A DNA stretch of 64,000 nt from Ianthella basta (lineage: Eukaryota > Porifera > Demospongiae > Verongiida > Ianthellidae), in assembly GCA_964019415.1 (NCBI GenBank), contig OZ025885.1:1936851-2000850 (forward strand), written 5' to 3'. How positions within the stretch are numbered: the first letter of the stretch is position 1; every line of letters begins with the position of its first letter. Shown in pieces: positions 1-64,000 of this stretch. The position numbers and the translations under genes are program-made. Under the pieces are notes generated by a model. It made no database searches. It was not told the DNA's origin and saw only the letters and a list, made by a program, of their open reading frames with translations.

Positions 1-3000
1 TGTCTGCAGACAGCTTGGACTGGGGTACCCAGTGAGAGTGCTCAATGAAGACACAGATGAACTGGACAAAGTGTCAGGGAGCAACACATCAGATTCTATT
101 AGCAGGTAATGTTCATTTTAGACTGCCCTTACAATTCTGCTGTTGTTACTATTGCCATTGGAAGATCTTTACTACAGTGGAACCTGTCTAAGATGGTCAC
201 TGTGTTTGGCAGCCACCTTTCTAAAACAGCCAGCCTCCCTGACCCATAATGACACAAAAGCATTGCAATCTACCTCTGTAGAGCAGCCACCTCTCTTTAA
301 AGATCAGTTTGAACTGGCCCACAGGAGGCTGTCTTAGATAGATTCCACTGTATTATCTTTTGACAACGTCCTCTGATGTCCTCAACTTATGTCATTGAAT
401 AATACAGATTCCGCTTTGGCAGTGGAAATCCCGTGCACATCATGACTGATGTGGCCTGTAAAGGGGATGAATCAAACATTTTCAGCTGTCCACCATATGT
501 GGGTCTAGACATCAGATGTGAGCCGTACAAAGCAGTGGGAGTACAGTGCAGTGAGTACAGACAAATTACTCTTCTTTAATTACATGATCTTCTTGGAATG
601 CTATGAATATCACATATCAGAATAATTATTAATTTCTAGTTGACTGCTATAATAGCTGTTCATCTGACTGATTTGACTTTAGCTGTATTATAAATTTGTC
701 AACCTCAGTGGAGTAACGCACTTTTAGCTTGTAGTCACTCTGATGCAGTCCATATAGCACACGGTCTCTGCAGAAACATATAGCTGTAATTTCTGTTCTG
801 AAACATAGGTGAGCTGTACCCCCAGCCGTACTCTGGTCAGGTACGTTTGGTTGGAGGGGAATTCTCCTCTGAAGGTAGATTGGAGGTGTACTTTAATGGG
901 CAGTGGGGAGCTGTCTGTGGAGAAGGCACACTGGATACGAATGTGGGAGAGACTGTCTGCAGACAGCTGGGATACACACATGGCAACGTTAACATATCTA
1001 TACAAACAGACAGGTATACAATTATTAGTGTTATTGTGATAAGAATATATGCATATTCATATGTACTTATGTCTGTAGTTCTTATCAGTTTTACAGAATC
1101 ATTCCCAGGGCCTGTATGGCTGACATCAGTGAACTGTTCTGACCGTTTCAGTTGCTTATCATCATGTCTGAAAGCAGCTCCCACTACAACCCAGACTTGT
1201 TCCAGCAGCACCTACCTTTTTATCACTTGTAGTGAGTTGGCACGACTTTGTATGACTTTCGTTTGACTTTGCCATGCCGTATTACTGACCTGAAGGAACT
1301 CGTGCTTTATGCAAATTAATGGATTAACTGGGCAGCTTCAGCACTGTGCAACAGTGATTAATGGTGTTTGTGACTACCTACAAAGTAGCACGTACATAAT
1401 AATTATTATGATTAATAGCGATGAAAAGGTTTGGCAGCATAGAAGCTTACAAATCTATATATTGCATCCCATGGTCTTGTTTTAGTATAGTGGAACCTGT
1501 TAAAGATGGTCAGTATGAATGGTAGCCACCTCTCTAAAATAAGTTATCTGCCTCATTGACCCCAAAATTGCGCTAAAACATAGCAATCTACGTACCTCGG
1601 TAGAGCAGCCAATTTTTTATATAGCCAGTTAGAACTGGCCTGAAGGTGGCTGTCTTAGACAGCTAGATTTCACTGTATACAGGCATTCTGGAGACTGTAA
1701 TCCTATGGGTTTTTTCTTTAGCTGATTGAATATGTCCTTTACCATAATTTTCTTTTGTGAATATAATTCTAGTTCCACTGTACACATGCATTGCTTACAT
1801 TACTTTCTACAATGTCATGTAATCATTCAATTTGAATTCACCATTCAATCTGTAATATGCAGCCCACAATACTATCAGCATTACAGACTATGGTACCAGA
1901 GATAGGTGCGAGCTGACTTCTGCAAGCCCAGGAGAAGGTACACTGAGACTGACTGGAGGTGCTACTGCCAACTCTGGGGTGGTACAGGTGTACCTGGGTG
2001 GAAAGTGGGGAGGGATCTGTGCAAATGAAGACCAGTGTGTCAGAAATACACTAGAGGTGATGTGTCGACAGCTTGGATACAGGAGCGGGATATCAGTTAG
2101 GTAAGTACATGCATGTAGTGAGTGAGTGCTTTAAATGAATGCAAATTTAATACCTAGCTGCACATGCTCTATTCATGTTATAACTAATTGCGTCTCCTCT
2201 GTGTGAAGCACACAACTTTTAATAAATTAGTGGTTTTTGGTATGCCCATATTATTATTGCTTTAACTCTCTGTATGCAGTCCTAAAGCAGTCAACCATCC
2301 CATCAATATTGCAAGTATAAACTGCACGGGTGGAGAGGGGAAAATAACAGATTGCATATACGTGCAGTCTTCTTCGTGTTCCTCAAATGCCCAGCTCTAT
2401 CTCAACTGCTGTAAGGCCATATATAGCAAGAGACAATAGCCTTATTATACCAGACAGCATGTGTACTAGACTATAGAAACACTAGTTATACTTGAGCAGT
2501 ATTGTAAGTTAATAATTGTTCTATTTTAATAGCAACCGAATTCTCTGCTCCATTGTATGGAGCAGTAACACTGACTGGTGGGGGAGGAGCAAGTGGTACT
2601 CTCGCAGTGGGGTCGTTAGGATCATTGTGTGACACTCCATTCAGCCGTGCCACTGGTGATGTGGTGTGCAGGCAGATGGGGTACCAAGGTGCTCGGGCTG
2701 TGAAGAAAGGGTCATTGTAAGTGCTTATTCTGAAATTCTGTTTGCATGGCAACTCTCGAGATGCATGCTTTTATTTATTTCCTCAGTTATGGAGCACCTC
2801 GTGATCCAGTTGCTATTTCAGCAGTTTGCACAGGAAGTGAGCAAAATTTGACTTCCTGTCAGTTGAGTGCCTGTTCAGGTACTGCAGCAGCTGGAGTTCA
2901 GTGTAGTAAGTACTAATTAGTAGATCAATCAGTACTATATAACTTGACTCAGATTACTGCAGCAGTTTCTACAATTTGTTCTTTTACTTATAGATGTAAA

Positions 3001-3541
3001 CAGCACTGAATCTGATCATGGTGACCTGAGACTGATTGGTGGCAGTTCAACAGCAGGAAGACTACAGATGCAATTGGATGGAATGTGGACTGCAGTGTGC
3101 TCATTCAGCTTCAGTGCTACTGCAGCCAGTGTTGCTTGCTCACAGATGGGATTGGGATCAACAGGAACTGTACTCACTGATAGATGGTTGGTTTGTTAAC
3201 CTTTTTGGTATGTAACAGTTTCTCTATTACATTTTTTCTAACTCACTATTTTACTGACTTCAATGACTGTCTTAATGACTTGCTCGCTTGAGCTCTGTTT
3301 CACCTTGCTAGGCGAAGTCACATCTACAATGGAAAACTTGCCATTCAGAACTGCTCTGGGACAGAGGCAAAGCTATATGACTGCTGGTATTTATTTGTAT
3401 ATTCTCATGACGTATGCGGCACAGACGTAGCTGTGGAATGTAAAAATTGCACCCGAGTCTGTCAGAATGGTGAAACACTAAACACCATCTCTTGCACTTG
3501 CATATGTACAGATGGGTACTTGGGAGAAAATTGCAGCCGCA
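1..3541 (+). CDS. Gene A N-terminal SRCR domains and EGF-like domain
   Basis: Exons: 1-105, 408-550, 809-1013, 1089-1231, 1863-2100, 2280-2410, 2533-2716, 2787-2905, 2994-3186 and 3312-3541. They encode five scavenger-receptor cysteine-rich domains, each split in two by a phase-2 intron just after the VCRQLGY-type motif. The first domain lacks its start because of the window edge. Typical motifs are RLVGG near the start, WGAVC, CRQLGY, and a final Cys pair around GVQC. Domains 4 and 5 are poorly conserved and short of some residues. The last exon continues into an EGF-like stretch with six cysteines (CTRVCQNG ... CICTDGYLGENC). SRCR domains bind proteins or polyanions on the cell surface; the partner here is unknown. 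Confidence 0.85.
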
Positions 3542-6500
3542 GTAAGTATATATAAATATGTATATATATATATATTAATATATTATTATATAATAACTAT
3601 ATATACTATTTTGTTGCATACTGTTATAATATTATTTGTCAGTTGTTGTGTAATACACTTATGATAGTGAGCCTGAATATTGGCTTTCTTTTAGCTCTTC
3701 TGTTGCAATTGTTTGTGGACTAGACAGTCTTACTGTACCAGATTACTAAGAAGCAGTACTGAACTTGAAGTGACCAATCTGCGACTATATATTCAGCAAA
3801 TGCTCAATGTCATAATATTGACTGATTGTACATTGGATTGAACATGTAGGTAAATTCCTGATACTGGGTAGTCACAGACAGAACAGATGAAGACTAAGAA
3901 AGAGAATGTGCCATGCTATCCATCAGGAATGATGAAACCCTTGGATAGTGACAATTCTTTAACTCTGCGTTATGTCTCCTTTGTATACATGGTGATGGTA
4001 GACAACTAGATTCTTATTATCATAATTATAGTAGCTAAATTTTTAAATACTCTAACTGACGGGCTGATGCAATGTCATACTCCAAAGTTGTCTGTATATG
4101 GTAAGATTACTCTTCCAACATGCATGCTGTGCTCAAAATTGGTTGATTTGGTTCTCTTACAGGAATTTCCTGTGGCAACCTAACTGTCCCCAGCAATGGT
4201 CATGTAGACACTAGTGCAGGCACCTCCTTTGGGGACACAGCAATGTACTCATGTGACACAGGGTACATGTTGAGTGGACCAGCTGAGAGAACATGTCAGG
4301 CTAATAGACAGTGGAGTGGGAGTGAAGTAACCTGTGGAAGTGAGTAGGTAACTGCAACCTATCAATATCTCAATTGCCACACAGTGTGCACAGTTTTGGC
4401 AAACTTACTTATTGTAACAGTATTACTTCAGTTCCATTGCAACACATTTCTGGTTTGACAAGTTTGGCTTGCTGTTGTTTGCATTAATTTAATCTACACA
4501 TATACTATTCTGTAGGAGTGTCCTGTGGTCAGCTTACCAATTCCAGTAATGGCCGTGTAAACACCAGTGCAGGCACCTCCTTTGGGGACACAGCAATGTA
4601 CTCATGTGACACAGGGTACATGTTGAATGGACCAGCTGAGAGAACATGTCAGGCTAATGGACAGTGGAGTGGGAGTGAACCAACTTGTGCAAGTGAGTGA
4701 ACAACTTATCTGTAACTTTACTGCACCACATTTGTGCCGTTCACAAGCTTCAGCAGACAACTGCTGACAACAGGGGTGTGCTGCATGTGTTTAGGTGATG
4801 TTCGATAATGCTAATTAAGATGGTCTATATACCATGTGTAGTTCTGAACGTTGTCTTTTATTCATGTCACCATGGTACATAGACCATCTTAATTAGCATT
4901 TCCGAGTGTCACTGATTAGTCAGTGCCCGGTGTGGGAGTTTCAAAAGAGGCTCTGGATAGAGCTCGCCTGGATCGGTATATAAGGAGAGAATGGATCAGT
5001 GGCTGTTGACGGTGACCAGTGAGCCGGCTGCTAAAGGGTCGGCTAAAGATCTGGAGGTTGCCAGTGCTGGTCCGGTTCACTGCCATTTCCCCTTCCCCCC
5101 TTCTTTCCTTACCATGTGTAGTTCCGAATGTTGCCTTTCATTATATAATTATAGTAGCTAAATTTATGAAACTGTAACTGTCAGGCTGATGCAATGTCAT
5201 ACTCCAAATTTGTCTGTATATGGTAAGATTACTCTTCCAACATGCATGCTGTGCTCAAAAAATTGGTTGACATGGTTCTCTTGCAGGAATTTCCTGTGGC
5301 CCACTTGCTGTCCCTAGTAATGGCCGTGTAGACACTAGTGCAGGCACCTCCTTTGGGGACACAGCAATGTACATGTGTGATGAAGGTTATGCAAGGCATG
5401 GACCACGTCTGACAACATGCCAGGCCAATGGAGAATGGAATGCGAGTGAACCATTGTGTTTACGTGAGTGAACAGTAGCATACCTGTTGCAGTACAATTG
5501 TACTGTCACATGTATAACATGTAGCTAGACAAATTTTCTTCTCTCTTACCCCTTCACTGAAGTTGTTGACTGTCGCACCCTCACACCCCTTCCTAACGGA
5601 ACCGTCTCCTTGCTTAACAGCACTACCACGTTCAACAGCATGGCAAAGTATGAATGTGAAATAGGATTTCAGCTGGTAGGCAATACCTACAGAGTTTGTG
5701 CGGCTCACGCATACTGGACTGGGAGTGTGCCAACTTGTAAACGTGAGTGAAGCTATGTGTACATCTAGTATTGTGTAGTGGACAAAGAATTATAGAATCC
5801 ATTTGAGTGCGGCAGTATGTGATAATGAGATTCTGGAATACAGTCATCATCTGTGCATGTGTGACTTTGCTCACAATTTCTTGACTGTTAGCAGATCAAT
5901 GTTGGTAAAGATTGCATGTTACTTATGCTATGCATTCTGTAGGTGTTGTCAGTTAATCATAGTTCTGCAGCTAAATTTATAAAAACTCTAACTGTCGGGC
6001 TGATGCAATGTCATACTCCAAAGTTGTCTGTATATGGTAAGATTACTCTTCCAACATGCATGCTGTGCTCAAAATTGGTTGATTTGGTTATATCCTGTAG
6101 GAATTTCCTGTGGCAACCTAACTGTCCTTAGTAATGGCCGTGTGGACACTAGTGCAGGCATCTCCTTTGGGGACACAGCAATGTACTCATGTGACACAGG
6201 GTACATGCTGAGTGGACCAGCTGAGAGAACATGCCAGGCAGATGGACAGTGGAATGGGAGTGTACCAACTTGTGAAAGTGAGTGGACAAGTTATGTATCT
6301 GTAACTCTATTGCACCAAATTGTGCCATTCACAAGCTTCAGCAGACAACTGGTGACAACAGGGGTGTGCTGCATGTGTTTAGATGAATTTGAGGGAACCA
6401 GTTAGTCCATTTAGTGTGAACTTTGCACATTCACTGAAATTTTGAAACATTTGCAACCTTTTGCTATTTTGTAGGAGTGTCCTGTGGTCCTCTTGCTGCC

Positions 6501-9500
6501 CACAGTAATGGTCGTGTGGACACTAGTGCAGGCACCTCCTTTGGGGACACAGCAATGTACTCATGTGACACAGGGTACATGTTGAGTGGACCAGCTGAGA
6601 GAACATGCCAGGCTGATGGACAATGGAATGGGAGTGAACCAACTTGTGCAAGTGAGTAAGCAGCTGATCTACATAGCCTATCTATAGCTACTACTGGACT
6701 TGTATCTGCCTTACACAATTCTTGCTAAATTTTAGTAGGCAACTGTGGATGGAAAGAGTAAAATGTGTGTATGCGTTTGACTGTTCTCATATCATTATTC
6801 AGTTTGATGTAATCTCCCATTCCTTGGAGAGTTACCATTTTTCTTATCTTTTTAGGGGATGCCGCAGGCAGCCCCTATATTGTTTTCAAATTGACATTTC
6901 GTATAGCTTATAGTTGAGTTGATGAATCTACTGGCAACAGATTCTTAAGCATGACACAGGCTGTTGTTGATAAAGCAACTGCAGGATGTTTCTACCTGGA
7001 GGTCTTATCAACTGCATGCAGGATTACTAGTGGATCCACTTGTTGTTTTAATCTTTACTTTGTAATGAACTTAAAGCTGAGCGTTCTTAACATCACTTAA
7101 TTAAGTTCTATGAGCCTCTACAGTATATGCAGAATCTCCTTGTATTTTTTGCTGTGGCAGTGTTTTATGCATGCTGTAACAACAACTGTATGCACCTTTC
7201 AATTAAATCTGCAACAGTGTATACAATATGTACATGAACATTGATGTCCATACATGTTATGTTCAATATTCTGCCAGTTCATCCTCTGTTATATTATATA
7301 TATATCCATAATAGATACACCACAGCTGACTGATGCCAGTGTATCAGTTATGGCAGTGAATGAAACAGGAAAGATCAGAGTCACTTGGAGCAGACCAACT
7401 CTGGGAGCTGGTCAAGTGATCACTGGCTACTCTGTACAGTATAGGAGAAGGGGAACCCCCTCTTACATCACTCGCTCAGTGTCTGGCTCTACTGCAACCT
7501 CATACACCATCACCAACCTCAATCTTGGTACAGTGTATGAAGTGAGAGTTGCATCAGTGGGCCCTCTTGGACTGAGTGGATACTGCTGTGGGAGTGGGAA
7601 ACTGGTTACAACATACAACAGTGAGTGTGCAGTGCATGGGAAGCAATTCTGTTCCATTTAAAGTTAATTTAAACTTACAGTAATTATAAGCCTCAGTTGT
7701 GCTTTTAGCAGATTCTTACAGTATAGAGGACTTTCAACCGTGCTGTGCAATGATTATGCTGCAGTTTGTTGTCTTCTATAGTTATGCAAATTATGCTTCA
7801 TTCATTATGCCTGATTGTATGTATATGATATGAGTAAAAACAACATGACACTAAACCTATATTTCGATACTAATGATGCACTATCTCCATTTCCCTTACC
7901 CCAACCACACCCATTCATTGTTTCTTTCGGTCATCATTGCCCATTGTCTATTTCTGCCTCATCCATTAAGAGCTCTACAATGTCAACCTATGTTTACCTA
8001 AGCTTTAGCATTGAAACTGTTTAGATTTCCTGATTAAATTATCAGAATCATAATGAGAAAGGGTTGGTTCTCTAATACCAGCTTCACAACAGGGTTGAAA
8101 ACCTTGCCGACGTTTCGAATTTGCAAAACATTGACAAGGTTTTCAACCCTGTTGTGAAGCTGGTATTAGAGAACCAACCCTTTCTGATGCCTGAGCCAGC
8201 TGAGAAGCCCTCACTTCAGAATCATAATGTTTCCAGTTACAGGACAAGTGTACAAGGGTTGCAAACAGCATTAATGTACTTGGCTCTCCAGGAATGAATT
8301 GACCATGAAGGGATGTTTCTAACATAACGTTTACCTCAACCAGGCTTTAACCATGCCTCAAATTTACCCCATGGCAAACTTATATTTCCTACTGTTGCCC
8401 ATTTTACCCTCCCACACGTGTCACTATGCATGCATAAATTTGAGCTCTTCTACTGCAAAAGATGCACCTAAAGACAGTTAAGGTTGCATTGAATTAGACA
8501 CAAGTTATAAAATTGAGCTAGTTAATTCTCAATTTGTGTCATCATTGTATTGCTTTTGTATGCAGCTACACGTACATATAATTATATGCAGCATTCAGCA
8601 AGACCATCATCAGCTATATATCTACACCATAACATAATTTCGTGTTTGTGAAATATCTTTCCCATGCACAATAATGTGGGTACAGGTACAACACAGCCTG
8701 TTATCTTACTGGCCAGCACAGCACTCTATACAATGATTTATTCATATTATGCCGGTACATTGAATTTTGCAACCCAATATTCTCTTACTGTGACAGTCCC
8801 ATCTCAAGTGACTGATGTCACTGTGTCAAAGGCAGTGAGATCAGGGAGACCAGCTCTGAGGGTGATGTGGACCACTCCCCAAAGTGATGTGTCCATCTCT
8901 CAATACCAGGTGCAGTACAGAAGAAGTGGGACTACTTCCTGGAGTAGTGCAGCCCCAGTCTCAGGTTCAACCACATCCACTTACCTTGAGGAGCTAGTTG
9001 CTGGCTCTGAGTATCAGGTTCGGGTGAGAGCAGTGTCTGCCATTGGAAGTGGTGCTTGGAGTGCGGTACAGTCATTGACAACATACAGGAGTGAGTCGTT
9101 CACCACTGAAGTTGTAATCTTGCAGAAATTGCAAATGTACAAATGCACATAACTCATATTTTGTATGACTTGGGATGAACTTGAGCTACACTTGAATCTT
9201 ATCAGTGTCGATAGTAGTATGCACCTTTACATCGCAATACGGCAGTTGTTATATATAGAAGATGAACAAAAGACGCAGTTAGCAACGCCTTAAATGTTCC
9301 TAAAACAATCCATCATACCTCACATAAGTGATGAGGAACAGAACAATTTAAGACTGCCAGCCCCATGGCCAAGTGAACTCAACAATAGATGTTGTCACAT
9401 AGCCTAGAGTTCATTACTCCTACTTCACCACACGTCTATGCTTAGCTTGTAATTCGTATAAAAATATTAATGCACACAACACAGTGGGTGTTGTAAAATG

Positions 9501-12500
9501 AGTCTGCCGTTGTCCTTGTACCTAAACGACAGCATTTGTATTATGTGGATTTCCTGATTTATGTAAGGGTGTGTATAATGCTTCCAGTTAGAGGGCAAAT
9601 GTCCATGGACTGTATACAGACTATATATACTTGGCATGCACTCCCGGATTGCGTTAGTGACTAACTACTTTATCACTTCCAGGAGTTGATGTGTTTTCTC
9701 CATGTTCCTATCTGTCACGGCTAACTTAACCAGGCTCTAGCTACACCCCACTTTAACCTGTGGTTGGTATATACTTTTCTTGTTGCCATTTTACCAACCA
9801 ATGTGTCTCTGCATGTGAACACTTATACACCTCCATATATTGCAAAAATTGCTGATAGCACTAGATAGTGCTGGTATGAATTGGAACATTACTGTAGTTA
9901 TGAAATTAAGCTAGTTTCCACCTTGTGCCATCATTTGAATTGCCTTTGCTTGCAGCCAAATATACCTGTGGTTGGTATATACTTTTCTTGTTGCCATTTT
10001 ACCATCCTGTGTGTGTCTCTGCATGTGAACTTGCATTGCAGCAGTAAATATATATAATTATACAGTAAATAATATTATGTTGCATAATGGTATAATAGTA
10101 TTTGTCAGTTGTTGGATAATAAATATTAATTATATAATTATTATATTATGTATTCTTAGAGTAGTGAATCATACAGTATTTTATGCGCATACATGCAATG
10201 ACAATACAACAATTTATTTGTCAACAATACACAGGATCTGTGTTCTGTGGTCAGCCCAATTTACTCAATAATGTACTCCAAATTTGCTGAATGTTTACAT
10301 TATTCATGCATTATGAATAGTTGCTTCATTGTTATGCTTATTGTGGTATTATTTACTTATATAGGGGTGTCCTGTGGTCAGCTATCTGATCCCAGTAATG
10401 GTCATGTGGACACTAGTGCAGGCACCTCATTTGGGGACACAGCAATGTACTCATGTGACACAGGGTACATGTTGAATGGACCAGCTGAGAGAGAATGTAA
10501 AACTAATGGACAGTGGAGTGGAAGTGAACCAACTTGTGAGAGTGAGTCTGATTGGATCTCTTTTAGCTCTTATTTGCAATTGTTTGTGGACTTGACAGTC
10601 TTACCGTATGAGATTAATAAGAAACAGTACTGAACTTGAAGTGACCAATCTGTGACGATATATTCAGCAAATGCACAATGTCATAACATTGACTGATTGT
10701 GCATTGGATTGAACAGCAGGTAAAATTCCTGATACTGGGTAGTCACAGACAGAACAGATGAAGACTAAGAAAGAAAATGTGCCGTGCTATCCATCAGGAA
10801 TGATGAAACCCTTGAATAGTGACAATTTTTAACTCTGTCTACAGTCTCCTGTGTATGGTGCTGGTAGACAACTAGATTATTATATAATTATAGTAGCTAA
10901 ATTTATAAAAACTCTAACTGTCCGGCTGATGCAATGTCATGCTCTAAATCTGTCTAATAGTATATGTAGTAAGGTTATATACTCTTCCAACATGCATGCT
11001 GTGCTCAAAAAATGGTTGATTTGGTTCTCTTGCAGGAATTTCCTGTGGCAACCTAACTGTCCCCAGTAATGGCAATGTAGACACTAGTGCAGGCACCTCC
11101 TTTGGGGACACAGCAATGTACATGTGTGATGAAGGTTATGCAAGGCATGGACCACGTCTGACAACATGCCAGGCTAATGGAGAATGGAATGCGAGTGAAC
11201 CATTGTGTTTACGTGAGTGAACAGTAGCATACCTGTTGCAGTACAATTGTACTGTCACATGTATAGCATGTAGATAGACATAGAGATAAATTTTCTTCTC
11301 TCTTACCCCTTCACTGAAGTTGTTGACTGTCGCACCCTCGCACCCCTTCCTAATGGAACCGTCTCCTTGCTTAACAGCACTACCACGTTCAACAGCATGG
11401 CAAAGTATGAATGTGAAATAGGATTTCAGCTGGTAGGCAATACCTACAGAGTCTGTGCGGCTCACGCATACTGGACTGGGAGTGTGCCAACTTGTAAACG
11501 TGAGTGAAGCTATGTGTACATATAGTATTGTGTAGTGGACAAAGAATTATAGAATCCATTTAAGTGCGGCAGTATGTGATAATGAGATTCTGGAATACAG
11601 TCATCATCTGTGCATGTGTGACTTTGCTCACAATTTTTTGACTGTTAGCAGATCAATGTTGGTAAAGATTGCATGTTACTTATGCTATGCATTCTGTAGG
11701 TGTTGTCAGTTAATCATAGTTCTGCAGCTAAATTTATAAAAACTCTAACTGTCGGGCTGATGCAATGTCATACTCCAAAGTTGTCTGTATATGGTAAGAT
11801 TACTCTTCCAACGTGCATGCTGTGCTCAAAATTGGTTGATTTGGTTATCTTGTAGGAATTTCCTGTGGCAACCTAACTGTCCCCAGTAATGGCCGTGTGG
11901 ACACTAGTACAGGCACCTCCTTTGGGGACACAGCAATGTACTCATGTGACACAGGGTACATGTTGAGTGGACCAGCTGAGAGAACATGCCAGACTAATGG
12001 ACAGTGGAATGGGAGTGAACCAACTTGTAAAAGTGAGCATTGCCAAACAGCTATTGGCTGTCCGTGCACTGCCACAACTTTATTTGACAATTTTCTATAT
12101 AATCTCTCTCCTCACCTACATTCTTTGTAGTTGTTGACTGTGGCTATCCAGAACATCTTCTTAATGGAAACATCTCCCTGCTTAGCAATAATACTACTTT
12201 CAATGGCATGGCAATATATGAATGTAATTCAGGATTCCACTTGGTAGGCAACACTAAAAGGGTTTGTCATGCCAATGGACAGTGGAATGGAAGTGTACCA
12301 ACTTGTAAAAGTGAGTGAACAGCTTACCAAATATTGCTACACATTTGTGGAATAACAAGTTTACTGTAGCTGATTGATTTGAGGTCAAGTATGCATGGAG
12401 AGAGAATGATCCAATAAGAGATCTTCAAGTGCTATATCTTACATTATACAGTGCGCCTGAGTACATGCAGGTTCACAAGTTTGATCTGTTTTTATCCACT

Positions 12501-15500
12501 CATGGCGTAAAAATTCTATAGGAGTATCCTGTGGTCAACTCGTTGCCCCCAGTAATGGTCGTGTGGACACTAGTGCAGGTACCTCCTTTGGGGACACAGC
12601 AATGTACTCATGTGACACAGGGTACATGTTGAGTGGACCAGCTGAGAGAACATGCCAGGATGATGGACAGTGGAATGGGAGTGTACCAACTTGTGAAAGT
12701 GAGTGGACCAGTTATGTATCTGTAACTCTATTGCACCAAATTGTGCCGTTCACAAGCTTCAGCAGACAACTGGTGACAACAGGGGTGTGCTGCATGTGTT
12801 TAGATGAATTTGAGGGAACCAGTTAGTCCACTTAGTGTGAACTTTGCACATTCACTGAAATTTTGAAACATTTGCAACCTTTTGCTATTTTGTAGGAGTG
12901 TCCTGCAGTCAACTATCTGATCCCAGTAATGGCCATGTGGACACTAGTGCAGGCACCTCCTTTGGGGACACAGCAATGTACTCATGTGACACAGGGTACA
13001 TGTTGAATGGACCAGCTGAGAGAGAATGTAAAACTGATGGACAGTGGAGTGGAAGTGAACCAACTTGTGAGAGTGAGTCTGATTGGATCTCTTTTAGCCC
13101 TTATTTGCAATTGTTTGTGGACTTGACAGTCTTACCGTATGAGATTAATAAGAAACAGTACTGAACTTGAAGTGCCCAATCTAAGATGATATATTCAGCA
13201 AATGCACAATGTCATAATATCGACTGATTGTGCATTGGATTGAACATGTAGGTAAATTCCTGATACTGGGTAGTCACAGACAGAACAGATGAAGACTAAG
13301 AAAGAGAATGTGCCATGCTATCCATCAGGAATGATGAAAACCTTGGATAGTGACAATTCTTTAACTCTGCGTTATGTCTCCTTTGTAAACATGGTGTTGG
13401 TAGACAACTAGATTCTTATTATTATAATTATAGTAGCTAAATTTATAAAAACTCTAACTGTCGGGCTGATGCAATGTCATACTCCAAAGTTGTCTGTATA
13501 TGGTAAGATTACTCTTCCAACATGCATGCTGTGCTCAAAAAGTTGGTTGATTTGGTTCTCTTGCAGGAATTTCCTGTGGCCCACTTGCTGTCCCTAGTAA
13601 TGGCCGTGTTGACACTAGTGCAGGCACCTCCTTTGGGGACACAGCAATGTACATGTGTGATGAAGGTTATGCAAGGCATGGACCACGTCTGACAACATGC
13701 CAGGCTAATGGAGAATGGAATGCGAGTGAACCATTGTGTTTACGTGAGTGAACAGTAGCATACCTGTTGCAGTATGTGATATCTTGTAAGCGTGGTAGCG
13801 TTTCGATATCAACAACGAACAACAACTGAAAGAGCACTCAGCTCAACAACTCAATGAACACATGCAAATAGGGCAGCCAACCAACTCACATCTACAACAG
13901 CTGCAACAACTGACAATAGCGTGCAAAACATGAGCTTAAATACTAAATGATTTGTTGCCAAGGCAATCACAGGGGACCAATCAGAAACAGGACTAAGGCC
14001 CATGATGATGCAGTATGACATAGTACAATAAATAAGATAAAGATGTTTCATACATGTCTAACAACCATGGCTTAACAAAGATGGAGTAACAACATAGGTT
14101 AACACTACACTACACAGTACAATTGTACTGTCACATGTATAGCATGTAGATAGACATAGAGATAAATTTTCTTCTCTCTTACCCCTTCACTGAAGTTGTT
14201 GACTGTCGCACCCTCGCACCCCTTCCTAACGGAACCGTCTCCTTGCTTAACAGCACTACCACGTTCAACAGCATGGCAAAGTATGAATGTGAAATAGGAT
14301 TTCAGCTGGTAGGCAATACCTACAGAGTTTGTGCGGCTCACGCATACTGGACTGGAAATGTGCCAACTTGTAAACGTGAGTGAAGCTATGTGTACATCTA
14401 GTATTGTGTAGTGGACAAAGAATTATAGAATCCATTTAAGTGTAGCAGTATGTGATAATGAGATTCTGGAATACAGTCATCATCTGTGCATGTGTGACTT
14501 TGTTCATAATTTTGACTATTAGCACATCAATGTCAGCAAAGATTGCATAATACTTATGCTATGCATCTGTAGGAATTTCCTGTGGCCCACTTGCTACCCC
14601 TAGTAATGGCCGTGTGAGTACTAGTGCAGGCACCTCCTTTGGGGACACAGCAATGTACTCATGTGACACAGGGTACATGTTGAGTGGACCAGCTGAGAGA
14701 ACATGTCAGGCTGGTGGACAGTGGAATGGGAGTGAACCAACTTGTGCAAGTGAGTGAGCAGCTAGCTGTTGGCTGTTCATGCACTGCCTCAACTTGCAGT
14801 GAAAGTCAGTGAGCAGTCTACCTGAATTTATAATAGGCCTTGGTATGTGTAATACAGTATATTTATCACCTGTGTTCATTTTGAATGTCTATCTTGCAAG
14901 GGGACAAAGATAAGTAGTTCACTATAAAATAGTTTAGTCAAATATATGCAATAATGTGTACTCTCAAGAAGTTCATCATGTATCATAATATTATTATAGT
15001 TACGCTATAGAATCTGGTTTCTTTTTGGATTAATCTATAGTTGCTGTAAACATGAATGAAAGAACCAATTAACATTCATATATTCAGAAATGGTTATTGT
15101 AAGCCTGTTTGAAAACAAGCTCAATTCCTTAATTCTCTGCATTCATAATATAGATGACTTGGATTCCTGTGGTCAACCTGATATTCCCAGTAATGGAGGT
15201 GTGGACACTAGTGCAGGCACCTCCTTTGGGGATATAGCAATGTACAATTGTGATGAAGGTTACACACTAAATGGACCAGCTGTGATATCTTGTCAGGGTA
15301 ATGGACAATGGAATGGAAGTGTACCAATTTGTGAAAGTGAGTAAATAGCCTGCTTGTACAGTGGCTCGTTTGGTGGTTTGACAACTTCCTAACCCCCACT
15401 GTGATTTGCAGTTGTCAATTGTGGCTCTTTGTTGCCATTTGCCAATGGAACTGTCACCCTTCTAAGCAACAGTACCACCTTTAATAGCATGGCAATGTAT

Positions 15501-15721
15501 GAATGCAGAATGGGATTTCACTATAAGTCAAGCTTGGTAGGTAACACCAGCAGAGTTTGCCAGGCTGATGGACAGTGGAGTGGAAATGTGCCAACTTGTG
15601 AAAGTGAGAGAACTTCCTCACCATTTTCTATAATTGTGCTCAAATGCTTGTGTCTATAAATGTGTTTGCATTTGTGTGAGTATGCAGTTTGTATAAATGT
15701 CCATGGTGTATGTGAATGTAG

Positions 15722-15772
<51 letters not shown>

Positions 15773-26717: not shown

Positions 26718-27080
26718 GAGAGTGCTGCAGAAGCACAACTATGCCTATGTATAGTGTCACCGACTGTGTCACTACACTATATTGTGTGTCAATACAGACA
26801 GCCACAGCCAACACAGTAAGTGACAGGCAAACTCAGTAAATGAGTATGATATAATAATGAGCATTCATTGCACCATTAATCATGAACATGCATCTGCCTG
26901 CCATGTTTCACTGCCAGATAGCCTATAAAGTTGTAGCAGGCTTGCTGCACTATATACCTTTTCCTGGCCACCTTCACCTGGACACTGTGTGAAGCTGTCC
27001 TCATTTACATCCTTCTTGTGACAGTTTTTGGAGCCAATGACAGACAATGGATTTACCTCTACCTGGCACTGGGATGGGGT
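26718..27080 (+). pseudogene. Relic of adhesion-GPCR TM2 and TM3 exons
   Basis: The piece at about 26718-26815 is a decayed TM2 exon ending in ATACAGACAGCCACAGCC with a surviving splice donor. The piece at about 26917-27080 matches the TM3 exon of genes A and B (CACCTTCACCTGGACACTGT, GAAGCTGTCCTCATTTACAT). In the second, the LLHYFFLAT codons carry a 4-bp insertion (CTATATACCTTTTCC), which shifts the frame. Neighbouring TM exons are missing. The intron between the pieces survives, so this is a failed genomic duplicate and not a retrocopy. A TG tract starts within 100 bp downstream. Confidence 0.8.
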
Positions 27081-27170
27081 ATGCATGCGATGCATTGTCC
27101 TATTAAGCTTTTTTCCATGATTGATCATGCGTGTGCAGTGTACTCAATCATTTGCATGTTTAACATGAGC

Positions 27171-27172
<2 letters not shown>

Positions 27173-27251
<79 letters not shown>

Positions 27252-48200: not shown

Positions 48201-48326
48201 TACGATGTTCCCAGAGCTACCACCACCATGTTTGGAGAGGGCAATGCTAATATAAGAGGCATGGCCAATGACTATGACGTTCCAAGAGCTACCACCACAG
48301 TGTTTGGAGAGGGCAGTGCTAGTTAA
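30829..48326 (+). CDS. Gene B: 12xSRCR-Calx-beta adhesion GPCR (complete)
   Basis: A complete multi-exon receptor gene. Forty-three exons join in frame from ATG 30829 to TAA 48326, a coding sum of 8415 nt or 2804 residues. The order is signal peptide, twelve SRCR domains, Calx-beta, three HRM-like units with calcium loops, GAIN/GPS, seven helices and tail. From Calx-beta on, it is a paralogue of gene A with many exons of identical length. The ectodomain has only SRCR modules and these are not split by introns, unlike those of gene A. The protein would be a cell-surface receptor with a long SRCR stalk; the ligand is unknown. The ATG was chosen because it has AGCC before it, begins a clear signal peptide, and lies just after a TATA/Inr promoter. 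Confidence 0.9.
31399..31917. other. Intron start after SRCR1, nothing recognised
   Basis: About 520 bp of intron before the Penelope-like element. There are a few short frames without domain character and a loose TATG/CATG-rich stretch near 31730-31800. Confidence 0.5.
31958..31999 (-). ncRNA. Hammerhead-ribozyme-like motif, left arm
   Basis: The mirror copy of 32392-32433 on the minus strand. The core TCATCAG (31989-31995) is the complement of CTGATGA, and GACGTTTC (31962-31969) is the complement of GAAACGTC. All helix and core bases are identical to the right copy. It is part of the same inverted-repeat element. Confidence 0.55.
32392..32433 (+). ncRNA. Hammerhead-ribozyme-like motif, right arm
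   Basis: Helix I strand ATCA (32392-32395), core CTGATGA (32396-32402), one extra A, helix II GGCAGC/GCTGCC (32404-32409 and 32416-32421) with a CGTAGT loop, then GAAA (32422-32425), CGTC (32426-32429) and helix I strand TGAT (32430-32433). The predicted cleavage site is after the C at 32429. Helix III is reduced to the self-complementary ACGT, as in minimal type I hammerheads that work best as dimers. The extra A before helix II departs from the consensus and could reduce activity. Confidence 0.55.
33022..33500. other. Intron between SRCR2 and SRCR3
   Basis: AT-rich, about 480 bp; nothing recognised. Confidence 0.5.
33855..34453. other. Intron between SRCR3 and SRCR4 with an antisense open frame
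   Basis: The intron is about 600 bp. On the minus strand, 34315-34046 is an open frame of 89 codons with a natural-looking composition (...MYHVRVKPNALTQILGSL...). It has no recognised domain and no clear splice partner. It could be a fragment of an inserted gene or a chance frame. Confidence 0.35.
37016..37470. other. Intron between SRCR8 and SRCR9
   Basis: The intron runs from 36946; this main part holds no recognised element or exon. Confidence 0.5.
39376..39804 (+). CDS. Gene B Calx-beta domain
   Basis: Exons 39376-39513 and 39595-39804 encode one Calx-beta domain: VNFERAQYTVSESAASITV in the first exon, and ELPAGETSVNVTLPIVNDD ending in TLITIVDDDRH in the second. Exon 1 is 138 nt as in gene A. 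The donor at 39805 (gtgggt) keeps phase 1 with the next exon. Confidence 0.88.
39889..42820 (+). CDS. Gene B linker: three HRM-like units with TSP3-like calcium loops
   Basis: Exons: 39889-40127, 40274-40309, 40390-40573, 40657-40784, 40867-40947, 41121-41417, 41511-41739, 41837-41934, 42017-42091, 42261-42303 and 42585-42820. HRM-like ends are TWGPLDMSQC, SWEPADISSC and VWGPVDASGC. Calcium-loop segments are LDTDRDGKPDYRDPC and LDTDGDMIPDHNDNCP. Exons of 297, 98 and 43 nt are the same length as in gene A. The 36-nt exon 40274-40309 has no counterpart in gene A and needs a GC donor (gcaaga); without it the phase still works, so it may be alternatively used or false. Confidence 0.78.
43138..45164 (+). 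CDS. Gene B GAIN domain and GPS autoproteolysis site
   Basis: Exons: 43138-43334, 43412-43478, 43596-43664, 43929-44064, 44167-44446, 44719-44842 and 44967-45164. The GPS reads FRCVFEVD, GWSTRGI and VRCSSSHLTNFMVLVSI, with predicted cleavage at HL/T. As in gene A, two of the four usual GPS cysteines are absent. The exon 44167-44446 covers what gene A spreads over two exons, and it lacks the mucin-like insert. Several Asn-X-Ser/Thr sites are present. Confidence 0.87.
45165..45858. other. Intron between GPS and TM1 exons
   Basis: About 690 bp. It contains the TIR-like element at 45431-45510; the rest shows nothing recognisable. Confidence 0.6.
45431..45510. repeat. Short TIR element, relative of 24352-24447
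   Basis: It starts CTAGTCTAGCATGCTAGACC and ends GGTCTCGTGCACTTGACTAG, imperfect inverted ends. The interior has the same CTCTCCGC/GAGAGGG elements as an inverted pair. No clear target duplication remains. Confidence 0.5.
45859..47662 (+). CDS. Gene B seven-transmembrane domain (adhesion GPCR class)
   Basis: Exons: 45859-45950 (TM1), 46106-46217 (TM2), 46312-46468 (TM3, start of TM4), 46586-46691 (TM4, loop 2), 46941-47007 (TM5), 47112-47224 (end of TM5, third intracellular loop), 47304-47430 (TM6, TM7) and 47582-47662 (end of TM7). Key motifs are KLHNFVHLNLCIALSLG, FTWTLCEAVLIYILLV, CWLPSQNGMIFAFVGP and GFTWIIGLFAVGEEGKVFAY. The TM6/TM7 protein sequence is nearly identical to gene A, whereas introns differ, so this core is under strong constraint or has undergone gene conversion. 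Confidence 0.94.
47898..48326 (+). CDS. Gene B cytoplasmic tail with two YDVP motifs
   Basis: Exons 47898-47937 and 48016-48326. The tail is homologous to that of gene A but ends with a tandem repeat: NHYDVPRATTTMFGEG, then NDYDVPRATTTVFGEG before the stop. YDVP is the textbook Crk-SH2 docking sequence when phosphorylated, so the tail is a candidate tyrosine-kinase target. Gene A has one copy, so the doubling is specific to gene B. Confidence 0.88.
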   Translation, partial: DLFSESTTSGTTSGIVQFASSIVRCLSYIPLIFYLGLNTGTFARSTFKSKEVDNSKFTSSAADTNVVADDGNGMGGTGGGDSKDVLELLARLTDDERQVNHYDVPRATTTMFGEGNANIRGMANDYDVPRATTTVFGEGSAS

Positions 48327-50589: not shown

Positions 50590-52745
50590 CCTCAGAAACC
50601 AAGGTGCGAAGGAGGTGTCAGCCAGATGACTCCTGGGAGCCAGCAGCCATCAGCACATGCACATTCAAGAACAACACTAAGAACCCCATCATCCTACTCA
50701 CGACAAGACTAGTTATCAGAAGGAAGCAGGATAGAGCAACAGTGATTGAGGGCATACAAATAACATTTGAAAGCAAGTCGGAAATATTCTATAGTATTGC
50801 AAAAAGTCAGTTAATTAATGGTTTTTACTTGCATGCTGCATGTTGCAAAAAGTCAACAATTCTCCATCACATATGTAGCTGCCCAACATCACCAAAGGAG
50901 CATTGAACTGAAGGAGTATATTACCAATGTAAAGGAAGAAGCTACCTCAAGAGGTGTTACTTATGAGTTTGTACAGTTGGTAGCTGTCAAGCCTTCAGAT
51001 AAAGTTTTTGACAAGGCAGCATTTGTACAGATACACCAGACTATTGTGTTCATCTGTTTCTGTTTACATTGTTGGTGGAGATTATTGAACAAATGAGATG
51101 TCCATTTAATTTGTTTGTAGAGTCCTGCAGAACAAGTAATGGACAACCTGCTAGTCTCTGTATTGGCACATCCAGTAGCCCATGTGACTGCAGTGACCTT
51201 GGAACATGCAAAGTGAGTTCATACTGGCCTAAGGGTAGCACTCACATTACTGTTTAGTCTGCTCATATACAGTGCGTACATACTGGCTCCAAAGTGACCC
51301 TTATTATTAAAGTGCATAGACCCATATGTGAACGATGCTGGTACAGGGAAAATGCTAATTGGACATAGATGGAGATGGAATACCAGACTACAGGGTCAAT
51401 GCTATTAAATCTATGAAACACATCACGCAATGTCATATGATCTAGAATGTTATATTGTACATGCATACATAGGAATGCCAATTGAGTTGTTCAACTTTGA
51501 TTGATTGATTGATACTAATTCCAATGGAGTAAGCATTTCACTGAAGATGAATATATATTAATTTTGCTATACATCATGCCAGTTCATTGTCCAAAGCATT
51601 GGTGTACTGATAACTTACAAGATGACTGTCCAGTAGATTATGGTACAGAGTCAAGTGGCTGTCGTAAGTCAAAGATATATATAATTTATACTTTCATGTG
51701 GTTTTGATCTGTATGATGCTAAAATTTGGGGATCATATATACTGTAATTATTTATACTGGTTAGTAATAAATTTTAATTGGATATCTATGTCAGATTTGG
51801 AGCATGAACTTGCGCAATGCATACATTTGCAATAGCGGCAATTGGTTATTATATTGTTAACAAGAAAACAGCAGAGAGTATTGTTGATCAATAATATCAC
51901 TAGACAATGTCTGATTCATGCATACAGAGTGTTTGCATACTGCATGTTACCCTATTAGTAAGCTGTTCACTGGAGACGCCATTCTTGTGCTTCTCCATGG
52001 CCAGCACTTCTTATACCAAGCACACTAGCTGTCTTGTGTCCCGCTGAAGAGGACACGGTGTGGAGGATCCAGTGGCCTGAAACTGCTCCAAGCTCTACTC
52101 AGTCTGTTCGCTGTCCAGGAGAGGGGGACACACCTGGGTTGGGGTTGGCCCACAGGAGCTGTCTGGCTGGTGGTGTGTGGGGTCCTGTTGATGCTAGTAA
52201 TTGTGAGTCATTGGCTGTCACAGATATCAGGATTTAGGTAATGTGCTTATCTGCATGGCTACGACTATCCCATAGTATAAGCTACTTGTGCAATAATATA
52301 ACTCCAGAGAAAAGTTTGATGTGAAAGAAGGTTATAAACTGCCTATTGCTATGTAAATTATAATGATGTGCTTGTAATTTATTATGCATGATGGAATCGT
52401 ACTTGTGGCTTGGGAAGAGTGTGAGCACTATAATAACTGCAGATTTCTTTTGTACATTATGCAGAACTGTAGTAATGATTTGATTTAAAAACTGATACAA
52501 AAATGTGAAATTTATTCTGTAGAGTGTATGCAATGGATGTCTCAATTTCAGTCATTTTAAATGTGCGCAGACGAGACACCTGAACCGTGATTTGAACTTC
52601 ACAAGGCAAAATGGACTTCCACTTTTGCAGTATGACAGGAGGGCAGTTGTGAATTTATCCTTAACTCTCAGACAGATGTTAAACCAGTCAGTGCATGTCT
52701 AGGCAGGGAAACCTCAGCCTGTCTATTCTTCCTCAAGTTGGATGT
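50590..52745 (+). pseudogene. Broken duplicate of the HRM-linker exons of genes A/B
   Basis: Exon relics in order: about 50594-50775 (VRRRC, SWEPAAISTCTF, 5' part missing), 50880-51000 (internal deletion relative to 41511-41739), 51121-51213 (intact, with donor), 51315-51394 (calcium-loop exon, frame shifted), 51622-51663 (intact, with donor), about 52004-52237 (HRM unit 3; the last codon before the donor is TAG where gene B has CAG) and 52570-52740 (GAIN start, with an in-frame stop). Introns are retained, so it is an unprocessed copy. GPS and seven-helix exons are absent. It is closer to gene B than to gene A in most exons. Confidence 0.88.
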
Positions 52746-53615
52746 ATGTACATACACATTAGAACAACATGCATAATTATGAAGGTAAATATATAGTCTT
52801 AAATTTGTAATTGATGATGTCTTATATTGTTTGTCCTCTCATAACTATTAACATTGAATGTTGCAAATTATGTAGCTATTTTTCTAACACAATTAGTTGC
52901 CTATTGGGTCCAAGTTAATAAGACTTGCCCTGGCCCAATGCAAGTCGGCTATTGTCCAATCTATTTGCTTTCATGTTTGTATACTCGTTATTATGTTTTC
53001 TCATGCATTTTATGTGTATAAGAAGTGAAGTGACAATACACTGACCTTATCTTGCAGTGACTGACTTAGAGGTCATTGCAGCAAACGTTTAGTGTGTTGA
53101 AAATTGACTAACAAAAAGGCCACACAATAGTGCCATTGGAGGCCAGGCACTACACTAGATACCGATCGATGTAGCTGTGAACATTACTGGGGGTAGAGCA
53201 GAGTCTGCTGGCATACCAAGAGTCATAGTTCATTTGTGGCTCAAAGCATTCTAACACAAATTATTAAGGGTAAAGTGTACAAATTGGCTGTGCATACAAA
53301 TCCACATATGGAACAGCTCCAAATGACATTTATAAGGCTAACATTGATATGAATATTATTCATATCACACAGTGCCTGCCCTCTGTCAGGAACAACCTAG
53401 CTTGAGAGTTCATTCATGACAAACGTACAGCTCCATGCACATTCCATTTCCATGTGCATGGCTATAGGCTGAATATATAATTATTGCAATGCAAATCACT
53501 TGCACTCCCTTGATCAGCTCAATTCTAATTTGTGTGTATATACACGTGTAAAGTTATATGTTAATGAATGTGTGTATGTACACGTACATATAATAATTAT
53601 GCACTATATATATAT

Positions 53616-53635
53616 TAGTCTAGTGCACTAGACTA
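53616..53635. repeat. 20-bp perfect palindrome
   Basis: TAGTCTAGTGCACTAGACTA reads the same on both strands. Its first bases match the ends of the elements at 24352 and 45431, so it may be a deletion product of that family. Confidence 0.7.
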
Positions 53636-53814
53636 GTGCATTAGTAATTGCCTATATGTATGCATGATTGATTGTATAAATTATATGAAGTATTGTAACT
53701 GCATTGTTTCACTCCTGGCCCACAACAATTCAGTACTTCTTTCTGCAGTGTTATATGCTCACAACTTTATGTGCACAGTATAATTTAATATGCAGGTAAT
53801 GTATATTGAAGTCC

Positions 53815-53975
53815 ACATGCTTCACTAACTGCACAACAGAAGCCATGCAAATGTGCTTTTTTCAGTGTATCGTCTATGTATGTAATGGATTGGGAATGAC
53901 ATTAGCACAGTGCCCATAACTGAAGTAAGTGTTTAAAACGTTTTGTAGGGGCTTGCGCACATGCATGCAATCATA
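53815..53975. repeat. Diverged duplicate of 27565-27760
   Basis: It shares CACAACAGAAGCCA, ATTAGCACAGTGCC and GTAGGGGCTTGCGCA with the earlier copy. Each copy lies downstream of a decayed receptor fragment. Confidence 0.6.
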
Positions 53976-60918: not shown

Positions 60919-63900
60919 GTAATTCCAATTATCACTAGAAATTATAGTAAATATTTTCTACAGGAATAAATAAGAATATAGGGATGGCTTAAAAAGTACA
61001 GAAACAAGTAAAGCCTGTTACACAGTGAAGCATTAACTATAGTCCCTACATGCAAGAACGCTGCACCTTATACTGTCCTACATCCTTGAATGTACAGACC
61101 ATGGTTAATGCTCCACTGTGTAACAGCCTTTACTTGTTTCTGTACTTTTTATGGCATCCTTTCATTCTTACTGTTTTTGTAGAAGATTCATATTATTTCT
61201 AGTTATGGTGTGCAAGCTGCAAATGCTATATAAGTTGCAACCGTAAGACATCCATGCAGGTATAGGACCGTAATTATTCCTGTAATCTTGGTTTCTGTAA
61301 TGTCGAGGTCGTTTTAATTTCTGTGGGACCGTGCACTTTCACTTGGAAGTAAGGTTAGTCCTGAGTGTACAACTATCACTTCCTCATGGGTATGTAGTTT
61401 TGCCAATTTTTAGCCCTATACAATTTTAGTGCTACTTTCGTTTGTATTACAGCATGCAAACAACCGCTGCCATTCCTACATAGACAGCACTACCTTGCAC
61501 TGTCCAGCACCACCACATTGAACCACCAAACAACTACCTCCACCCAGTGCAAGTTACACACTGCACCTGCAGAATACATGTCAGTGCCACTGAGAAATAT
61601 AGACCGGCCACTAGCTGCAGAGTGTAACCATTGCCAGTGCAAATCTATAGATTTAGCACTATCACTGTAGTTGATGGAATGCAAAGCAACACCAGAGTAT
61701 ATAAGTTGTTGAAGGTAAGGAGAATGCACTCCATGGCCAGAAGCAGCTGGCTCAAGTTGGATTGAGATGTAACAACATGCAAATTAACATTATAATGGGC
61801 ACTGATAAGGTTTGCAGTTGTGTCCTTGCTCAAATTGTGTTTTGTCAAAATTAATTGTTGTGTTGATGCTACTGGGCGCAACTCTGCAGCTTTGCTTCCC
61901 CATTTCTATGTTTTCAAATGTGCACACTAAGTTCTAGCTACTTGGGTCTACTTATGTCTATTTTATAGCTGATAAGTGATTGATGATCTAGCAATGCCAA
62001 TGGTGAAATCTCCCCTTCTCTTGATGGGAAGATAAGAACTAAATTTAAATTCTAGTGGGTTTGCGTGTGATATCTTCTCAGAGGTGGATGTTGCAAGTGA
62101 ATAATAGTTACTGAGCCACGCTGCTCTTAGGTGATTATGGCAAGGTGCATTCATTGACAAGCAGTTGTTCAGTACTCAACTGAATATGGTATACTGATGC
62201 TGGTGTATACTGATGCTACGGGAGACCTGAATACGATCATTGTTTCAGCTGTCACTCAATACACCAATGGTTACTCCTTGCCCACAATTCGACCAAATGA
62301 TCACACTCAGGTTCACCTTCACTCACTCACTACATGAGAACATTCATTCCTGCTCAGTATTAATGTTAGATCGAATCTTTCTAGACAATCAACTACTGAG
62401 TAGCTACAATCTCAACTCCATTACTAGTGCAAAAGATGGACTGCCACAAGTGTATGTAGCTCAAGTGGACTCACATGAGGAGTGCGAAATCCAGCATGTA
62501 GACACTGATGCCACACTAGGTGTGATCATGTACGGGTTTGGTCAGTACAGGTCTCATGGACATCCTGGAGGACTGAACCTTGCTCCAGGTGTGCTACATC
62601 TACATGAATTCGTTTTTTTTATTAGGAAACATACTACAGTATGTAGTGCACATTGTATATCGGATAAAGCATTCAGTAGATGAGTAATCATACGGTATGT
62701 ATAATTATGCAGAGTCAGACACTCTTATGTCCAAAATAAGAAGATGCTCATGTTTAATCCCAGAGCTTCAAACATTTTTGAACGTCATCAAATACCAAAT
62801 GAAGTTCAACTATTATAGTAAAATGTAATAGCTATGTATGTTGGTACTTAATGCGTGCAATGTTTAAATTTTAATGTATACTACAGTCTTGCATATGCAT
62901 GTACCAGCATTTTACAGCACTCTGCAATTGGACATCTTAGGTTCACTCACTTTAGTGCAGGATACACTTTAGCTAATGGGCCATATCCTCGCAGCTAATA
63001 TTTTTGATTGCTAATTCTATGTGAAGTACCTTTTTAGCTTTACCATTATTCTTATAGCCCCCCTACCTTCCATTGTTGGCTTTGCAAAAATTCATCAGCA
63101 AGTACGAGAAGAGGAGGGAGAGGCTTTAATCTGTCTACTGAGAAGGAGAAACCTAGACCGAAATGACACAGTCACAGTGCTTGCCCTGGAACAAGAGATA
63201 GGAGAGGAGTTGGCTACAGGTATTTGTTTGTATACACGCTAGTATATACTCCAATTCACTTCACTGTTTGTACCTAATTGATCTACCTGAAGTACAATTG
63301 CTTGCATTCTTATATATGTACAGGCGATGTAGACTTTGCTAACATGAATGTGAGTGTCACATTTGAAGTTGGTGCATCTGAGGCATGTTTTGAGGTTGAA
63401 ATTTACATGGACGGCAAAACGGAAGTCACTGAACAGTTCCTTCTGAAGATTGTGGGCAATACAGAAGAGATAGTGGTGGACGAGAACTCGGGCATAACAG
63501 TGGTTGCAATTGTGGACACAGGATCCCGTGGGTGTTGTGTGCAGCATATTGCATGAATTGACTGGCAAATTATACAGTTACATCACCATAATTTAATGGT
63601 GTTACAATTTATCTAATAGTTATATAAAAATACCAGCTCATTCTCTTCATGTTGTGCTCCCATTTGATTTAATGTTTGGTTATGCAACAGCTTGTCATCC
63701 AAACTTGATCTTCCCGAAGACACCAGTGAACTCACAAGCGAAGTTGCCTTGTTCCCAACTGGATGGAAGCTTCCTTGCCGGTGGAATGGTGATAGCCAAG
63801 TGCTCTGTAAATAGCACATGGGAACCACTGGACATGTCTCAGTGCACATTCAGCAGTAATGTACAAGTGGCTGCAGTGGCTGTGGTAGAGCTTATGTCAC

Positions 63901-63929
63901 TAGTGGAAGATTCACTCTTGAATATGGAA
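55104..63929 (+). CDS. Gene C: third adhesion-GPCR-type receptor (3' partial, possibly damaged)
   Basis: The gene starts at ATG 55104 and runs past the right edge. Ten exons to 60918 join in frame (497 codons plus one base). Next come an IgGFc-binding-like segment, a Calx-beta domain and, at 63691-63929, the first HRM-like exon of the cassette used by genes A and B. GPS and seven-helix exons are expected beyond base 64000. The ectodomain is unrelated to those of A and B. The segment at 62162-62588 cannot be read through without removing 28 bp, so the gene may carry a lesion. The N-terminus MALNSVPSRALLLTVLTVGL is a good signal peptide. Confidence 0.75.
55640..56229. other. CpG-rich start of gene C intron 2
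   Basis: This stretch, and 56500-56720 beyond the next element, has many more CG dinucleotides than the rest of the window (for example GATGCGCGCAAAATAAACGC). It holds no gene I can support. Confidence 0.45.
56252..56276. repeat. Interstitial telomere-type CCCTAA repeat
   Basis: CCTTAACCCTAACCCTAACC and a few more bases: about four copies of the complement of TTAGGG, the common metazoan telomere unit. It lies inside a mobile-looking element, so it is not evidence for a chromosome end. Confidence 0.85.
56277..56465. repeat. 27-bp minisatellite, 7 units
   Basis: The unit is TGTAGCGAGCGCCCAAGACT plus AAGTTGT. The first unit is the most diverged and later ones differ at one or two positions. 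The apparent SCCSERPRL peptide repeat is a by-product of a unit length divisible by three. Confidence 0.95.
56873..57255. repeat. MITE-like element, family 2 copy 1
   Basis: Ends TAAGGATTTAGGGATGG and CCATCCCTACATCCTTA, together with GTAAAGGCTGTTACACAGTG against CACTGTGTAGCTAACAGTCT, form long imperfect inverted repeats. The interior repeats GCAATATTCTTGCATG and GCAACATCCTTGCATG. It lies in intron 2 of gene C. Confidence 0.8.
57384..57405. repeat. TATC microsatellite
   Basis: About five units of CTAT in an intron of gene C. Confidence 0.9.
60939..61203. repeat. MITE-like element, family 2 copy 2
   Basis: Same family as 56873-57255: TAGGGATGGCTTAAAAAGTA, GTTACACAGTG on the left and CACTGTGTAACAGCC, TTTTTATGGCATCC on the right. 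It is about 120 bp shorter, lacking part of the interior. Confidence 0.8.
61204..62161. other. Gene C intron with no exon found
   Basis: Nearly 1 kb in which a central part of the IgGFc-like domain might be expected. I found no frame with that character. A stretch near 61440-61640 is rich in CACC/ACCA but has no domain signal. Confidence 0.5.
62162..62588 (+). CDS. Gene C IgGFc-binding-like segment, frame broken
   Basis: The left part, from about 62162 to 62310, reads GILMLVYTDATGDLNTIIVS and YTNGYSLPTIRPNDHTQ. The right part, 62339-62588, reads SCSVLMLDRIFLDNQLLSS and DTDATLGVIMYGFGQYRSHG, HPGGLNL. The second is a clear match to the end of IgGFc-binding protein domains, which close with an FGV.VYGF...YGYPGG motif. 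The two parts are in different frames, separated by 28 bp that begin GT and end AG. The middle of a normal IgGFc module (well over 100 residues) is absent. The left acceptor is weak. Either a tiny intron, an indel or an internal deletion explains this. Confidence 0.6.
62589..63057. other. Gene C intron before Calx-beta
   Basis: About 470 bp, AT-rich; nothing recognised. Confidence 0.5.
63058..63527 (+). CDS. Gene C Calx-beta domain
   Basis: Exons 63058-63219 and 63324-63527. The first reads VGFAKIHQQVREEEGEALIC, the second FEVGASEACFEVEIYMDGKT and ends TVVAIVDTGS. The acidic DDD that closes the domain in genes A and B is replaced by VDTGS, so a calcium ligand may be lost. Splice phases are 1-1 as in the paralogues. 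The donor at 63528 (gtgggt) joins in phase to the next exon. Confidence 0.8.
63691..63929 (+). CDS. Gene C HRM-like unit 1 (last exon in window)
   Basis: CHPNLIFPKTPVNSQAKLPC, QLDGSFLAGGMVIAKCSVNS and TWEPLDMSQCTF match unit 1 of genes A and B. The exon is 239 nt, the same as in gene B, and ends with donor gtaaga in phase 0. About 70 bases of intron follow to the window end. Confidence 0.88.
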
Positions 63930-64000
63930 GTAAGAATGGTTTAAATATTCTTTGTGGTACAATAGTACAGCTATAATTAATGTATTCTCCTCGGTTATAA

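Follow-up and report, generated by a model that had tools for sequence, protein, structure and literature searches.

A tandem array of adhesion G protein-coupled receptor genes with varied outer modules in the sponge Ianthella basta

The 64,000-nucleotide stretch of Ianthella basta DNA considered here (the window; positions 1936851-2000850 of contig C18, in a genome of 209 Mb and 96 contigs) belongs to a tandem array of adhesion G protein-coupled receptor (GPCR) genes. It was analysed together with 50 kb upstream and 200 kb downstream (window numbering -49999 to 264000, with N stretches at 67501-72500 and 252501-255000), and the flanking sequence revealed that the array continues: it holds 18 adhesion GPCR cassettes or fragments, with 34 other cassettes in the genome (52 in total). 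The genes of the window are all on the + strand; that they share one orientation had been claimed in an earlier reading of the window from its letters alone (the sequence-only reading). We consider it probable that this array grew by duplication and unequal recombination and that its outer modules have been replaced as units, which would couple several inputs to one kind of output.

Ectodomain modules and the cassette

Comparisons involved 16 cassette copies or fragments and four short helix pieces; minus-strand open reading frame (ORF) clusters overlapping plus-strand exons were excluded from counts. In the more complete copies, a cassette made of HRM-like, GPS and seven-helix exons is preceded by one of three ectodomain modules. 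Trees built from the cassettes reject grouping by ectodomain type (approximately unbiased test, p 0.0001-0.0008), and because cassette relationships do not follow ectodomain type, whole ectodomain modules must have been replaced. Within genes, identity shifts sharply at the Calx/HRM boundary, which adjoins phase-1 introns. The replaced unit is the ectodomain together with its Calx-beta domain, and it ends where Calx-beta gives way to the first of the HRM-like exons. In all five SRCR genes that were read, 12 SRCR domains precede the cassette (in gene I, one domain split across two frames was merged).

The sequence-only reading had proposed a locus that varies its receptors while holding their output constant. 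This stands for the varied ectodomains, for the conserved GPS and seven-helix parts and for the replacement of modules relative to the cassette; it does not extend to the cytoplasmic tail. Tail identity between copies is 41-64%, except among A, B and D (80-84%) and between F and G (92%), and helix conservation is partly a general property of these exons, loci elsewhere in the genome, on other contigs, being close as well; these points weaken the proposal of a constant output. Tails differ between groups, and YEVP/YDVP repeats resembling Crk-type SH2 sites are present in those of A, B and D.

As in adhesion GPCRs generally, the receptor would be cut at its conserved HLT site and kept as a non-covalent two-part protein, and binding or pull on the outer part would expose a tethered peptide, activating the helices and then a G protein. 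The ligands of the outer parts would be microbes, matrix or other cells, if these domains behave like those of SRCR, Sushi and IgGFc-binding proteins. An array grown by duplication and unequal recombination would in this way supply several inputs to one kind of output.

Gene models and receptor class

Features of the window are given below; our gene D is the gene C of the sequence-only reading, and our Fragment C is a separate broken cassette.

1..3196 (+): gene A SRCR exons (Pfam SRCR in three frames; the window begins within one exon and the gene extends upstream)
4010..6656 (+): gene A first Sushi (CCP) block, 6 stretches (Pfam Sushi 8.2e-24 and 4.7e-45; ORF-cluster coordinates)
8652..9152 (+): gene A FN3 region (Pfam fn3 2.3e-25; ORF coordinates)
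10202..15656 (+): gene A second Sushi block, 12 stretches (Pfam Sushi; ORF-cluster coordinates)
15944..16365 (+): gene A Calx-beta exons (tblastn with gene B Calx-beta exons; ORF)
16517..25203 (+): gene A HRM-like repeats, GAIN/GPS and seven-helix exons (matched exon by exon to gene B)
25447..25818 (+): gene A cytoplasmic tail, carrying YEVPRATTTTFGEG
26912..27091 (+): orphan third-helix exon downstream of gene A (blastn, 83.3% to gene B 46306-46481)
31029..39301 (+): gene B, 12 SRCR exons (own profile, 12 matches)
39376..39804 (+): gene B, two Calx-beta exons, each phase 1-1 (Pfam 3.2e-12; splice sites)
39889..42820 (+): gene B HRM-like region, exons h1a-h3, 9 exons (splice-site conservation; Pfam HRM)
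43138..45164 (+): gene B GAIN-like region and GPS, exons g1-g5 and gps (GPS Pfam 9.2e-9)
45859..47662 (+): gene B seven-helix exons tm1-tm7, 8 exons (Pfam 7tm_2 1.6e-54)
47898..48326 (+): gene B cytoplasmic tail with two YDVPRATTTxFGEG repeats and stop
50592..52773 (+): Fragment C, broken cassette with h2a-g1 only
62164..62590 (+): gene D IgGFc-binding domain remnant, truncated and frameshifted (tblastn with the gene E ORF)
63015..63553 (+): gene D Calx-beta exons, divergent type (Pfam Calx-beta 6.4e-10)
63597..64000 (+): gene D cassette start (runs on to 67381; tail at 72795-73237)

The 12 SRCR domains claimed for gene B were recovered with our own SRCR profile, and a single B exon tested against Pfam SRCR gave 1.2e-32. 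A simple scan found donors for 10 of these exons, all in phase 1, the other two having phase-1 donor candidates at 39206 (GTAAGT) and 33854 (GTTAGT), and a phase-1 acceptor is available in 12 of 12; together with the Calx-beta exons this supports the phase-1 ectodomain boundaries proposed earlier. In the HRM-like region, Pfam HRM places h3 above its cut-off (1.2e-8) and h2a below it, and finds no match in h1a-h1b. A candidate micro-exon of 19 nt occurs at 43460-43478, with a similar one in gene E.

The ectodomain claimed for gene A (SRCR, CCP and FN3) was likewise recovered, with 18 Sushi stretches and two fn3 stretches within 6603-9902, the best one being that listed; partial matches to our SRCR profile lie at 832, 1922, 2559 and 2996. 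Genes A and B had been said to use the same exons from Calx-beta on. With the 27 exons of gene B from Calx-beta to stop as reference, this holds from the HRM-like part to the tail, GPS and seven helices included, except that h1b is unmatched in A and h1d, represented by a short match out of order, is not established.

Fragment C carries a 4-base insertion in g1, and neither GPS nor helices were found when looked for in it. The IgGFc-like part attributed to what is now gene D is homologous to the gene E ORF by tblastn but exists only as a truncated, frameshifted remnant, whose 175 aa match no Pfam family, the IgGFc-binding one included; the domain in gene E is above the Pfam cut-off (PF17517, 8.3e-55). 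A 27-base tandem repeat of 7.1 copies (56277-56468) also lies within the ectodomain claimed for this gene. On contig C11, an open IgGFc-binding frame (5329036-5330025, -) shares its strand with a cassette marker (5324620-5324817, -) and precedes it by about 4 kb, so that the IgGFc type is probably not confined to this array. No tRNA was found by a tRNA scan, and no Pfam family at 26.0-29.3 kb (+), 28.0-31.0 kb (-) or 48.4-51.4 kb (+).

Spliced gene B carries the 7tm_2-family helices that define adhesion GPCRs (class B2), with 185 bits against a cut-off of 20.6. Adhesion GPCRs are cleaved at the GPS within an HL-T/S tripeptide, and here the GPS adjoins helix 1 with HLT in 10 of 10 GPS exons (gene D not among them). 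The N-terminus predicted from exons is long and modular, comprising SRCR, Sushi, FN3, Calx-beta, HRM and IgGFc. A GAIN fold around the GPS is putative: Pfam gave no GAIN match at E<=0.05, and alignment to solved adhesion GPCRs starts at the earliest at residue 241 of the 619-residue spliced query. The helices are closest to ADGRL3/ADGRD1 (171 bits for ADGRL3 vs 34 bits, E 1.3e-7, for ADGRV1); with these nearer helices and one Calx-beta domain (two exons) per cassette, the genes do not fall in the ADGRV subfamily. Nor is their genomic layout that of a protocadherin-like cluster, the cassette being repeated in each gene with no single constant region.

The GPS exons of ten copies (e.g. 44967-45164) apparently keep only cysteines 1 and 3 of the canonical four; one GPS disulfide may have been lost throughout the array. 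A second, different array occurs at C12:4781447-5038004, with 30 class-B 7tm genes among the matches listed. There the helix domain lies within one open frame (360 to 2431 codons), and these helix domains are therefore probably without introns.

Divergence, recombination and alternative explanations

Outer domains evolve faster than helices. Within F, G and I, the ratio of nonsynonymous to synonymous substitutions (dN/dS) for SRCR is 0.57, 0.63 and 0.60, as compared to 0.09-0.15 (tm1-4) and 0.10-0.40 (tm5-7) for the helices; SRCR ratios are below 1 overall, with individual domains at or above 1 in some pairs. GC at 4-fold sites is 0.50-0.57 in helix exons (45859-47662 and other copies) and 0.33-0.42 in those genes' H1, H2 and GAIN exons.

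Several traces correspond to the remnants expected of unequal exchange. From its third-helix exon on, gene E (84519-87837) has been copied behind F (F2, 112201-115504) with 92.4% identity over 3.4 kb including introns. Genes A, B and D have tail and 3' flank in common (A-D, 86.5% over 517 bases), this flank being also found behind H, and the orphan helix exon belongs to the same set of traces. Intron homology was judged by score against shuffles, as free-gap identities could not separate homology from chance; the A-B tail intron stands 84 standard deviations above its shuffles. Most of the introns that separate helix exons could not be aligned outside the F-G pair.

Ordinary tandem duplication followed by divergence, in which each ectodomain has the same history as its cassette and the three types are old duplicates that never exchanged parts, appears unlikely: the cassette trees contradict it, and with the sharp shift within genes each replacement requires intragenic recombination. 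Even less probable is that the ectodomain exons encode secreted SRCR, Sushi or IgGFc proteins of their own, their genes alternating with those of GPCRs that have short N-termini. SRCR (150 scored of 1173 candidates) and IgGFc (71 matches) are indeed abundant elsewhere in the genome, and exon joins are predicted here from genomic sequence. Against this, the exons lie on one strand and can be joined in phase 1 all the way from SRCR to HRM by way of Calx-beta, 12 SRCR domains precede the cassette in each of the five SRCR genes read, and SRCR-7TM proteins were predicted in Amphimedon (PMC4302439). Protocadherin-like splicing, joining the ectodomain of one unit to the cassette of another, is the least probable of all, as every ectodomain has its own cassette next to it, unlike in a system with a single constant region.

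A more serious possibility, though short of an even chance, is that ongoing gene conversion homogenises the helices beyond conservation by selection. Between groups, 4-fold differences are low in helices (291/1458) relative to GAIN+GPS (708/1299), yet within F, G and I the two are alike (24/355 and 36/417, respectively), helices on C11, C10 and C13 are likewise close to the array (distances of 0.39, 0.34 and 0.18), and helix-exon introns mostly fail to align outside F-G. Helix gene conversion is thus suggested but not shown. A broader reading, in which a diversifying germline locus trades ectodomain-plus-Calx modules at one phase-1 boundary while recombination keeps helices alike, and in which individuals would differ in self/non-self or microbe receptors, seems rather doubtful. 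Unequal recombination with replacement of outer modules as units is the interpretation we retain.

Relation to known receptors and recognition loci

ADGRV1 (VLGR1) is a Calx-beta adhesion GPCR and resembles the present genes in combining Calx-beta, GPS and seven helices, but it has a long Calx-beta array where a single domain is found here. The sponge aggregation factor, a cell-recognition proteoglycan core with Calx-beta, also places this domain at the cell surface; it is not a seven-helix receptor, and the likeness is one of domain description only. Clustered immune families such as SpTransformer, and clustered protocadherins, similarly form tandem arrays with variable outer parts, whereas here a separate membrane cassette belongs to every unit and several fold classes are represented among the outer parts.

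The array is a candidate for a locus through which an early animal could diversify the recognition abilities of its cells. Its exchange boundary has been located, and the difference between its fast outer and its slow inner parts can be measured; as read from sequence it would provide concrete candidate genes for how early-branching animals recognise self, non-self and microbes. In A. aerophoba, microbial signals elicit a response of both SRCR and GPCR genes (PMC6208332).

Among open-licence papers, no title or abstract start describing such an array was found; what is new is the array itself, its IgGFc type and the placing of the module boundary, and SRCR adhesion GPCRs are already known from a sponge and amphioxus. 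In the demosponge Amphimedon queenslandica, SRCR repeats occur in two adhesion GPCRs and HRM in at least eight, and the present receptors are like them in joining 7tm_2, GPS, HRM and N-terminal SRCR repeats (PMC4302439). They differ in that the main text there has no occurrence of "tandem" or "Calx-beta" (IgGFc was not searched there), and ectodomain replacement between neighbours was not found in the text examined (PMC4302439). The order HRM, GAIN/GPS, helices follows the HRM/GAIN/7TM module of holozoan adhesion GPCRs, among whose ectodomains Calx-beta is counted; unlike that module, the array has up to three HRM-like repeats, tandem genes and interchangeable outer modules (PMC12716839). Amphioxus adhesion GPCRs carry SRCR, Kringle, Somatomedin B and other domains, and likewise set varied cysteine-rich ectodomains on adhesion-type seven-helix parts (PMC2246102). 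In the text examined, their domain set differs except for SRCR, and the domain shuffling proposed there is suggested, with no gene-tree test found; the sponge locus offers a worked case of the modular ectodomain replacement which that work suggests (PMC2246102).
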